Positions 3,389 through 13,304 of a stretch of DNA of 25,513 nucleotides are shown here, one piece after another. Both the position numbers and the translations under genes were made by a program. The DNA is from a virus. How positions within the stretch are numbered: position 1 is the stretch's first letter; the number at the start of each line of letters is the position of its first letter. The notes beneath the pieces are model-generated. The model ran no database searches. It saw nothing but the letters and a program-made list of their open reading frames with translations, and was not told the origin of the DNA. The stretch lies in the IMG/VR virus record IMGVR_UViG_3300029319_000451, positions 1 through 25,513 of that record. One strand, 5' to 3'.

Positions 3389-3417
3389 GTTATAGCACAG
3401 AAAAAAATAGGGGTCAA
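3389..3417 (-). promoter_or_regulatory. Strong sigma-70-like promoter for the DUF932-integrase-primase unit
   Basis: On the minus strand TTGACC (3412-3417), a 17-nt spacer and TATAAC (3389-3394) are seen, with TGC just before the -10 (extended -10). The predicted start is about 3382, giving a short leader of about 35 nt to the AAAGGAGAT site and ATG of the DUF932 gene. The spacing and matches are as good as those of the other promoters in this window. Confidence 0.75.
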
Positions 3418-3422
3418 GTGTT

Positions 3423-3626
3423 TTAGAACTTAGTCACTAAAGTGACACCCTCTTTATCTAACTGCCTCATGGCCATGTATTCTTTCCACTTAGCATCTAT
3501 CAGGGCTTGGTCTGCACCTTCAAATATTAAGTCACCATGTTCACGCATAAGCCTACGCCTCTCGTCTGCCACGTGCAACAGTCGTTTGTCACTGGCCTTA
3601 TCTGGGTATATTGGGTCTATATACAT
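3423..3626 (-). CDS. Unknown small protein, 67 aa
   Basis: A small charged, helical protein (MYIDPIYPDKASDKRLL...), with the heptad-like stretch VADERRRLMREHGDLIFEG in the middle. I chose the ATG at 3626 because AAAGGAG lies exactly 8 nt upstream. The in-frame GTG and ATG at 3635 and 3632 touch that ribosome binding site and are unlikely. The gene overlaps the end of the upstream small ORF by 29 nt. It is the last gene before the 3.4 kb promoter, so it ends the upper leftward unit. No family recognised. Confidence 0.65.
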   Translation of the reverse strand: MYIDPIYPDKASDKRLLHVADERRRLMREHGDLIFEGADQALIDAKWKEYMAMRQLDKEGVTLVTKF

Positions 3627-5009: not shown

Positions 5010-5182
5010 AATTGCACCTTTCCATTCTCATTTAATAATACAGATTGCACATTGACACGATAGCCCATCTCACGCAACTCTCGCGCTTTTTCTGTTGCTA
5101 CATAAAGCGAGTGTGTCGCATGATGACACGTCCATCCATCACCTCTATCGTGTGTATAATTAATCAAGAATACTTCGTTCAT
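5006..5182 (-). CDS. Unknown small protein, 58 aa
   Basis: Begins MNEVFLINYTHDRGDGWTCH with an alpha helix in the middle (ATEKARELREMG), suggesting a small beta-alpha-beta fold. The ATG at 5182 is favoured because AAGGA is about 9 nt upstream; an in-frame ATG at 5191 would touch the AAGG. It lies 1 nt after a tiny membrane-protein ORF. Not recognised. Confidence 0.6.
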   Translation of the reverse strand: MNEVFLINYTHDRGDGWTCHHATHSLYVATEKARELREMGYRVNVQSVLLNENGKVQL

Positions 5183-5183
5183 A

Positions 5184-5276
5184 TTATCCATCCTTGTACA
5201 GTTTGTACATTATATAACATATTCCTACCACACATACAAGCAGATAACCGCCAATGAATACATCATCCCACGGCAT
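5184..5276 (-). CDS. Tiny membrane peptide, 30 aa (possible GTG start at 5315 gives 43 aa)
   Basis: Reads MPWDDVFIGGYLLVCVVGIC followed by YIMYKLYKDG: one transmembrane helix flanked by acidic and basic ends, typical of a real micropeptide. It fills an otherwise empty gap in a densely packed strand and ends 1 nt before the next start. Upstream in frame, GTG at 5315 overlaps the preceding stop as GTGA, so a 43-aa form is possible. Neither start has a good ribosome binding site. Confidence 0.45.
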   Translation of the reverse strand: MPWDDVFIGGYLLVCVVGICYIMYKLYKDG

Positions 5277-5994: not shown

Positions 5995-6288
5995 TCACGC
6001 CCTCTCAGCTTGTGTTAATTCATACCACCTATTGGCAGCACCTATTATCATGTTGGTATATTTGATAGCATACCCAGTGCCAGCAGTCAAGTCACCCTTA
6101 GTGATTAGGTGTTTGTGCATATGTTGCACGTTGTCCCACTCACTCAATAACCGTTTGCACAATGCGTCATATTCATCATCTGTTAATACTTGCTTATCTT
6201 CCTTGTAGTATAGATAACTACTCATTAGATAGTAAGGCACTAGCCTATTGATAGATAAGTTTTCAATTAGTGTGTTTGCACTATTCAT
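5995..6288 (-). CDS. Small helical protein with a LigA-N-terminus-like motif, 97 aa
   Basis: Residues about 19-50 (PYYLMSSYLYYKEDKQVLTD then DEYDALCKRLL) resemble the first helices of NAD-dependent DNA ligase (adenylation domain Ia, the YY..D.P.ISD.EYD pattern), where the tyrosines and Asp bind the NMN half of NAD+. The rest of a ligase is missing, so this is at most a stand-alone domain Ia-like protein. It starts with ATG overlapping the HhH gene stop (TAATG). The link with NAD or DNA repair is inference; the motif is short and may be only a helical-pair similarity. Confidence 0.6.
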   Translation of the reverse strand: MNSANTLIENLSINRLVPYYLMSSYLYYKEDKQVLTDDEYDALCKRLLSEWDNVQHMHKHLITKGDLTAGTGYAIKYTNMIIGAANRWYELTQAERA

Positions 6289-8107: not shown

Positions 8108-8235
8108 GTACGTATATGTATGTAGAAATACACAGATTAGGAAAATTAAGTGTTAACCACAAGTGCAACTGACAGTTCGCCATACATGAGCAACGCTAAA
8201 TTTACCTCTTTTTAAAAATAATTACGTGATAGGGG

Positions 8236-8264
8236 TTGACATGCTTAAAAAAATATGGTATAAT
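8236..8264 (+). promoter_or_regulatory. Consensus sigma-70 promoter for the rightward arm
   Basis: TTGACA (8236-8241), 17 nt, TATAAT (8259-8264), with TGG directly before the -10. This is a full-consensus promoter with an extended -10. The predicted start is about 8271, giving a leader of roughly 165 nt full of inverted repeats before the first rightward gene. Confidence 0.85.
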
Positions 8265-8280
8265 TATGTATAACTAGACA

Positions 8281-8402
8281 CACTTAAAGTGATTCACTTA
8301 AATGTTTACTTAATAACTCTTAAAAAGACTCTTTAACTATAGACATTTAAGTGTATAGTTAAGAGTTCTTATAAGATTTTCTTTGCTAATACATTTTAAG
8401 TG
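8281..8402. repeat. Four CACTTAAATG-type sites and nested inverted repeats (operator array or leader RNA)
   Basis: CACTTAAAGTG (8281-8291, itself a palindrome), CACTTAAATGT (8295-8305), ACATTTAAGTG (8343-8353) and ACATTTTAAGTG (8391-8402) share one motif in both orientations. The second and third are exact 11-bp inverted copies. TTAACTATA (8333-8341) pairs with TATAGTTAA (8354-8362), and AACTCTTAA (8315-8323) pairs with TTAAGAGTT (8359-8367). The last two pairings compete for the same bases. Confidence 0.7.
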
Positions 8403-8416
8403 ATAGTATTCGTGCC

Positions 8417-8422
8417 TATAAT
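8417..8422 (+). promoter_or_regulatory. TATAAT element just before the first rightward gene
   Basis: A perfect -10 hexamer TATAAT at 8417-8422 with no TTGACA at the right distance. The place of the -35 is occupied by ACATTTTAAGTG (8391-8402), one of the repeated sites. This could be a promoter that needs an activator bound there. Predicted start about 8429, a few bases before the TTG start codon. Confidence 0.35.
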
Positions 8423-8433
8423 TAAAAAAGTTC

Positions 8434-8655
8434 TTGACTTTGGCTAAGAAATCCGTAAAACTATACACAGATAATGTACTTGATGCATTTTATCATGCTA
8501 TTCGTACTAATTCGTTAGACCGTTTACACATACCACACAGCGATGTGTTCTACGTGCGTAGTGCTGTTGAAGCACATTACGGACGTAAGTTTACTTTGAA
8601 GCACGTAGAAGATGCTATGAGGGCTGAAGGGTGGACAGAGAAAGATGAACAATGA
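8434..8655 (+). CDS. Unknown protein, 73 aa, TTG start, first gene of the late arm
   Basis: There is no ATG or GTG in the first half of this frame, and an in-frame stop lies at 8419-8421. Translation therefore must start at TTG 8434 or TTG 8440 (the latter gives (M)AKKSVKLYTDN, a typical start). No Shine-Dalgarno is visible. The protein has helical stretches (VLDAFYHAIRTNSLDRL; SAVEAHYGRKFTLKHVEDAM) that could form a small helix-turn-helix-like domain, so a regulator is possible but unproved. It ends with an ATGA overlap into the next gene. The region before it holds the operator-like array. Confidence 0.6.
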   Translation: MTLAKKSVKLYTDNVLDAFYHAIRTNSLDRLHIPHSDVFYVRSAVEAHYGRKFTLKHVEDAMRAEGWTEKDEQ

Positions 8656-11997: not shown

Positions 11998-12219
11998 ATG
12001 GCTCCAAGAAAAAAAGCAACGCCTAAAAAAATGCGTATGTCTAAGGGTGGCTCTACAGTAAACAAAGCGGGTAACTATACAAAACCTGCTCTCAGAAAAA
12101 GAATATTTAACAGAATCAAGGCTGGGAGTAAAGGTGGCGCACCCGGACAGTGGAGTGCTAGAAAAGCTCAGATGACTGCCCTAGCTTATAAAAGGGCTGG
12201 CGGTGGGTACAGAAATTAA
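11998..12219 (+). CDS. Small basic phage protein, 73 aa (GGAPGQWSARKAQ family)
   Basis: Starts MAPRKKATPKKMRMSKGGST and has the conserved end RIKAGSKGGAPGQWSARKAQ followed by MTALAYKRAGGGYRN. The block K-P-x-L-R-x-R...I-K-A-G-x-K-G-G-x-P-G-Q-W-S-A-R-K-A-Q is common in small phage and DUF5872-like proteins. It is probably nucleic-acid binding or virion-associated. It lies directly before the oxygenase gene with an overlap (TAATG). AGGATG lies 5 nt before its own ATG. Confidence 0.7.
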   Translation: MAPRKKATPKKMRMSKGGSTVNKAGNYTKPALRKRIFNRIKAGSKGGAPGQWSARKAQMTALAYKRAGGGYRN

Positions 12220-13304
12220 TGCCACCACGTAATCATAAAGATTGGATAAAAAAACCTAATGTAGAGTATGTAAACTCTCTTATATACTCTGACCGAAGTT
12301 TATATGAGCAAGAGCAAGAAAACATATTTTCTAAAGTCTGGGTTCCTATGTGTCATATCAGTGAGATGCGTAACAAGGGTGACTATAGGACTACAAGAAT
12401 TGCAGACAAAAGAGTTATAGCAATTAACGTAGACGGTGAGAATGTTCAGGCTTATTATAATACTAATGACATCGACCATCGTAAACCTGCTGGAAATATT
12501 ACCTATGATTTTGCTACTGTAGAAACTCCGCTGCATAGCGAAATAAAACACGGTGGCATGGTATGGGTAACACTAGACCCTAACCCAACACAGAGTGTCG
12601 AAGAATGGACATGTGGTGCATTTGATTGTATCGCAGACGCAATTGACACAGAAGAACTAGAAGTATTTCACTATCACAAAGCTGTCATAGACACAAACTA
12701 CAAACTGTGGCACGATACTAATTCAGAGTTCTATCACGACTTTATGCATTACTTTAATCGTGTGTCAGGATTTAATGATGAGTACTTTGCTAGAAAGAAT
12801 ATCCCATTTGATAACGGACACGTCAACGTCAGTAGTTTTACAGTTAACTACGAAGAGTACGATGGTTTTGAAGACAGAGGAGAACTTAGTTTCCCTAACC
12901 TTCCACCTAACCAATGGTATATGGTAGACTTATTTCCCGGCTATAACTTTAACCTACGTGGCAGTGCATATCGCAGTGACAGTGTAACACCACTAGGACC
13001 AAACAAAGTATTGATTGAGTTCCGTGGCTACGGTTTGCGTAGGGACACAAAAGAAGAAAGACAGACACGTATCAAACATCATAATTCTATATGGGGACCG
13101 TTTGGTAGAAACTTACATGAAGACTTGTTAGGTGTCGCAGGTCAAGGCACTACAATGCGAGAAGGAACAGAACCCCGTAATATCTTGCATGGTAGACATG
13201 AGAACAGCACAATACACGATGAAGTAGGTATGAGACACTACTACGCAGAGTGGTCTAAATGGATGCAAGTGGACGCTAGTAACCCGGCACTAGCAGCAGC
13301 GTAA
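12219..13304 (+). CDS. Rieske-type oxygenase alpha subunit lacking Rieske cluster ligands (methanesulfonate monooxygenase-like)
   Basis: This 361-aa protein aligns by eye with ring-hydroxylating/methanesulfonate-type oxygenase large subunits. The N-terminus has FSKVWVPMCHISEM (37-50), as in the family. At the first Rieske motif (normally N-x-C-x-H-R) it has NTNDIDHRK (81-89), so the Cys is missing. The second motif CPYHGW is absent: the sequence passes from AGNITYDF to ETPLHSE. The mononuclear iron site survives: WHDTNSEFYHDFMH gives H173 and H177, with E170 at the bridging position, and NLHEDLLGV gives a carboxylate at E301/D302. Related genes annotated msmA occur in marine phages such as HMO-2011 (from memory). 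Without the [2Fe-2S] centre, electron delivery must differ or the protein has a new role. Confidence 0.85.
   Translation: MPPRNHKDWIKKPNVEYVNSLIYSDRSLYEQEQENIFSKVWVPMCHISEMRNKGDYRTTRIADKRVIAINVDGENVQAYYNTNDIDHRKPAGNITYDFATVETPLHSEIKHGGMVWVTLDPNPTQSVEEWTCGAFDCIADAIDTEELEVFHYHKAVIDTNYKLWHDTNSEFYHDFMHYFNRVSGFNDEYFARKNIPFDNGHVNVSSFTVNYEEYDGFEDRGELSFPNLPPNQWYMVDLFPGYNFNLRGSAYRSDSVTPLGPNKVLIEFRGYGLRRDTKEERQTRIKHHNSIWGPFGRNLHEDLLGVAGQGTTMREGTEPRNILHGRHENSTIHDEVGMRHYYAEWSKWMQVDASNPALAAA

Follow-up and report, generated by a model that had tools for sequence, protein, structure and literature searches.

The window, by which we mean the whole stretch of 25,513 bases analysed here, is collinear with the SAR116 phage HMO-2011. 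Its leftward genes code for a primase, an integrase and other proteins, while the rightward genes code for a 71-aa protein, a set of small proteins, a Rieske-type oxygenase alpha subunit, a lysozyme, the terminase, the portal and head proteins. The oxygenase gene (12219-13304), a ring-hydroxylating oxygenase alpha subunit of family PF00848, lies where HMO-2011 has its methanesulfonate monooxygenase gene and is an auxiliary metabolic gene. On the minus strand, positions 5995-6288 code for a 97-aa protein that is a stand-alone domain: of NAD-dependent DNA ligase it matches the N-terminal NAD+-binding domain (PF22745) and nothing else. On the same strand, a perfect GTCACTTTAGTGAC palindrome at 3390-3440 shortly precedes a leftward TTGACC...TATAAC promoter-like site. 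Another inverted repeat, the long hairpin TTATATAACACTT...AAGTGTTATATAA, lies between early genes of CRP-1 (990-1035) and CRP-345 (about 810-860), with a related, diverged counterpart in HMO-2011 near 1205-1245.

The rightward genes are preceded by a promoter and a leader in which we recognise the following features:

8236-8264, plus strand: sigma70 promoter TTGACA-17-TGnTATAAT, 12 of 12 consensus positions matched, TGn present
8281-8291, symmetric: dyad site 1, CACTTAAAGTG, directly past the presumed transcription start
8295-8304, plus strand: dyad site 2, CACTTAAATG, left arm of an 11-bp pairing, 13-14 bp from site 1
8344-8353, minus strand: dyad site 3, CATTTAAGTG, with its strong half towards the gene; forms the right arm of the 11-bp pairing
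8376-8391, plus strand: conserved spacer block TTTTCTTTGCTAATAC, seen in the leader alignment and the leader listing
8392-8402, minus strand: dyad site 4, CATTTTAAGTG, where the aligned relatives have CACTTTAAGTG or CAGTTTAACTG
8440-8652, plus strand: first gene, coding for the 71-aa protein, with a TTG start in the window and ATG in most relatives

From its sequence, this promoter would start transcription near 8271 and may be the main or late promoter of the phage; among the relatives, TTGACA is present in 59 of 65 and TATAAT in 60 of 65. Upstream of it, at 8123-8166, there is a conserved element, ATACACAGATTAGG...AAGTGTTAACCACA, and GTGTTAACCAC precedes the promoter in 42 of 59 relatives and is also present in CRP-1 and CRP-345. 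This element might be an origin, a part of a leftward promoter or an att site. We also considered TTTTCTTTGYTAATAC and ACTCTTTAAC as possible boxA-like sequences.

The preliminary description of this leader had reported three long pairings, 8295-8305 with 8343-8353 (11 bp), 8333-8341 with 8354-8362 (9 bp) and 8315-8323 with 8359-8367 (9 bp). In all three the arms are indeed exact reverse complements, and the two 9-bp pairings are mutually exclusive, as 8354-8362 overlaps 8359-8367. Such repeats are far in excess of chance: in the 159 bases of the region, perfect inverted repeats of 9 bp or more number five against a mean of 0.24 in dinucleotide shuffles, a number reached by none of 1000 shuffles, and only 1.9% of the shuffles contained one or more of at least 11 bp. 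What had been overlooked is that both arms of the 11-bp pairing belong to copies of one near-palindrome of the type CACTTAA(A)GTG, which is repeated at least four times in the window leader (8281, 8295, 8344 and 8392) where 0.10 would be expected. Because a palindromic site is complementary to every other copy of itself, the RNA pairings follow from the sites. In one of the four the strong half faces the promoter, in two it is opposite and one is symmetric, and the 11-bp pairing arises because the window, unusually, has two sites in the rarer orientation. One of these is site 3, at whose place most relatives have CACTTAAATG or CACTTAACTA; its flanks TTAACTATA/TATAGTTAA (8333-8362) make up the second pairing of the preliminary description. 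Site 1 is identical, at the same position, in most close relatives in the leader alignment.

The array extends well beyond the window. We counted 65 leaders, with three more set aside for their diverged promoters or motifs, and found 238 dyads of the form CAnT-N1-4-AnTG against 11.3 ± 3.2 (sd) in shuffles, counts that are not independent, as the leaders are related. The site is a near-palindrome of 10-12 bp, CACT-N2/3-AGTG, with a total length of 10 or 11 bases and rarely 12, and the array of such sites immediately follows a near-perfect sigma70 promoter. The centre of the first dyad lies mostly 19-26 bases past the -10 box. From one dyad to the next the distance is mostly 12-15, 32-34 or 45-51 bases, 12-15 being the commonest. 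The sites are strongly oriented, with CACT on the promoter side only in 101 cases and on the gene side only in 11. In the HMO-2011 genome there is a single cluster of dyads, at this place only.

Distant relatives, as defined by the first-gene protein, keep an array in the same place but built of other motifs. De novo dyad counts gave CACT-N3-AGTG (60 vs 0.4) for class A, TACT-N3-AGTA (76 vs 2.0) for class B, and both ACAT-N2-ATGT (26 vs 0.8) and AGTT-N1-AACT (45 vs 1.4) for class C, and in the same counts control dyads showed no enrichment. The motifs of the distant groups can also be written TACT-N3-AGTA and ACATTAATGT/AGTTnAACT; the regular expressions for class C are crude, and with them the CRP-2 array was weakly detected genome-wide. 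A finer drift is seen between leaders L249 and L251 (76% DNA identity over 2.1 kb), where several sites have been altered alike, from CACT to CAT(A/T), a concerted change that would be as expected for a changed trans-acting binder. A second promoter is frequent in leaders of classes B and C. Many leaders that are of class C or resemble that of CRP-9 have a dyad between the -35 and -10 boxes of this second promoter or over its -10 box. CRP-13 and CRP-9 carry in addition a second array in the left operon, ahead of genes unrelated to that of the first-gene protein. In CRP-13 (3398-3550) this array is made up of TACT..AGTA dyads; it follows a TTGACA box near 3398 and precedes an unrelated 70-aa gene, and no full sigma70 match was found there. 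In CRP-9 it lies at about 5160-5270.

We propose that the leader is probably an operator array, acting in repression or as a roadblock, for a phage regulator of the rightward operon. Each operator would be a 10-12 bp near-palindrome with half-sites CACT/AGTG, occupied by a phage-encoded, probably dimeric DNA-binding protein. Once bound, this protein would block transcription from the very strong promoter upstream, which is of the host-sigma70 type, either at initiation or early in elongation, and the block would set the timing or the level of expression of the operon, that is, of the first gene, the small genes, the oxygenase, lysozyme, terminase, portal and coat. Both the binding of a protein to the array and the repression that would follow are read from the sequences. 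Repeated dyads at or overlapping a promoter, as in phage repressor operator clusters in general, were found. Some observations count against operators: dyads vary at their centre (total length 10, 11 and sometimes 12 bp), whereas a rigid dimer would not usually allow this; the strong orientation would be needless for a purely symmetric operator; and many relatives' leaders fold somewhat better than controls in which the sites are kept.

This last observation bears on the RNA switch, the first of the two functions suggested in the preliminary description, in which the leader transcript would refold among mutually exclusive stems and so set readthrough into the operon. In its favour are the long exact pairings and the folding of 8271-8440, more stable than dinucleotide shuffles (z -2.6, and z -1.9 in a second run on the window leader), as well as that of the relatives' leaders, which beat plain shuffles with a mean z of -2.15. 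However, when the dyads were kept and only the spacers shuffled, the window leader gave z -0.26 and 111 of 300 controls folded as well, so that the sites alone fully reproduce its stability. For the relatives (44 leaders) the mean z against such controls was -0.97, a residue possibly due to imperfect sites having been shuffled; any extra structure in some of them would be weak. The pairings, moreover, vary in an alignment of 15 related leaders: the near-identical relative (L117) keeps the 11-bp and the first 9-bp pairing while the third is broken (7/9), and in the others they are down to 8-10/11, 3-5/9 and 4-5/9. In these aligned leaders pair counts revealed no covariation above letter shuffles, and RNAalifold no pair showing compensatory change. 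Read as RNA, the third base pair of class-A dyads is a pair in 112 cases, a mismatch in 113 and a wobble in only 6, mismatches far outnumbering wobbles at a paired position. The plus strand of the leader has no terminator-like hairpin that could serve as an intrinsic terminator, and Rfam gave no match in the window at gathering score. With neither covariation nor the site-preserving folding controls in its support, we consider the switch very unlikely and have dropped it; the operators, the other function suggested at the outset, are well supported by the relatives.

A different role for the transcript would be that a phage RNA-binding protein reads oriented CACUUAA repeats in the nascent RNA, for antitermination or translational control. 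The bias of orientation relative to transcription, the presence of sites in the transcribed leader and their variable spacing all fit such a protein, but the dyad symmetry is kept, and in classes B and C dyads lie within the -35/-10 elements of promoters, although an upstream promoter may transcribe them. DNA stoperators, too, show a bias of orientation (PMC9283540), and we regard reading at the RNA level as quite unlikely. We are still more sceptical of iterons of a replication origin, or a packaging site, in the divergent intergenic region. AT-rich repeats do adjoin the strong promoter, and the cumulative GC skew of HMO-2011 has its minimum at 53-54 kb, where the array is located; yet divergent gene orientation also yields such a skew, the second arrays of CRP-13 and CRP-9 precede an unrelated gene, and dyads sit within promoters.

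The operator reading has precedents. The OL and OR regions of lambdoid phages are groups of several pseudo-symmetric operators at strong phage promoters, with a type-specific sequence that defines immunity groups. The array shares with them the several sites, their pseudo-symmetry, the strong promoter and the type-specific sequence. Its sites, however, are 10-12 bp long, number as many as seven or so and lie for the most part past the transcription start, and the adjoining gene codes for no recognised CI or Cro protein. MetJ binds met boxes, tandem short palindromes of 8 bp. Tandem short palindromes about 12-13 bp apart are also what we see here, but the met boxes are shorter and a ribbon-helix-helix protein was not found. 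The closest known analogue is the set of operators and stoperators of mycobacteriophage L5 and its Cluster A relatives, short sites present several times per phage and mostly oriented with transcription, whose consensus differs among related phages and tracks phage divergence (PMC6550527, PMC9283540). Orientation along transcription across the 65 leaders and type-specific drift are shared with that system. The L5 sites, in contrast, are asymmetric, 13 bp long and more than 20 over the genome, whereas ours are near-palindromes grouped at a single promoter (in two clusters in CRP-9 and CRP-13), and no homologous repressor was recognised. An L5-type repressor has an HTH and a stoperator domain; the window proteins scanned with Pfam and PHROG included no repressor.

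What protein could bind the array? CRP-1 (class A), CRP-2 (class C), and CRP-9 and CRP-13 (class B) have a common isolation strain, FZCC0023 (PMC6918029, PMC8528129). Different motifs in phages of one host strain make a host-encoded binder unlikely, and the binder is therefore probably encoded by the phage. No DNA-binding regulator was recognised with Pfam and PHROG in most of the window proteins and ten HMO-2011 proteins. A weak candidate is the 71-aa first-gene protein, which would then regulate its own operon as a special case of the operator reading. Its gene is the first of the operon throughout the group and is highly conserved, three helices are predicted, and the divergence of the protein parallels the motif class. 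It belongs to no known family, however; two structure predictions are of low confidence (pLDDT 55 and 61), neither Foldseek (PDB, BFVD) nor VIA-align found anything useful beyond its own family, and a profile search of PDB sequences gave a chance match only. Also against this candidate, nearly identical leaders are followed by proteins with divergent helices 2-3 (L116/L001, leaders 97% and helices 61% identical; L016/L024, 93% and 52%), while L249, L251 and L253 have similar proteins and different motifs. Taken together, autoregulation by this protein seems unlikely. In the same two pairs, the C-terminal half of the protein comes in two interchangeable forms, HYGRxFTLKHVEDAMRAEGW or KFxPRxFTLKETEDYMRLEGW, although the leaders are near-identical, which suggests recombination inside the 71-codon gene.

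Among marine viruses, phages of the HMO-2011 type form a dominant and broadly distributed group (PMC9038755). The open-access literature that we searched on them makes no mention of a promoter or repressor. We put forward, tentatively and as a possibility about which we have more doubt than confidence, that in these phages the promoter of the morphogenesis operon has oriented operator arrays on which a small phage DNA-binding protein of no known fold acts, with a specificity split into incompatible, immunity-like classes that share one host, a system undescribed in that literature. The conserved, class-specific array would give a direct handle on the control circuit of HMO-2011-type phages: it may be used as bait for the regulator, to predict cross-regulation among phages that share a host, and to find out if those members of the group that bear an integrase are truly temperate.
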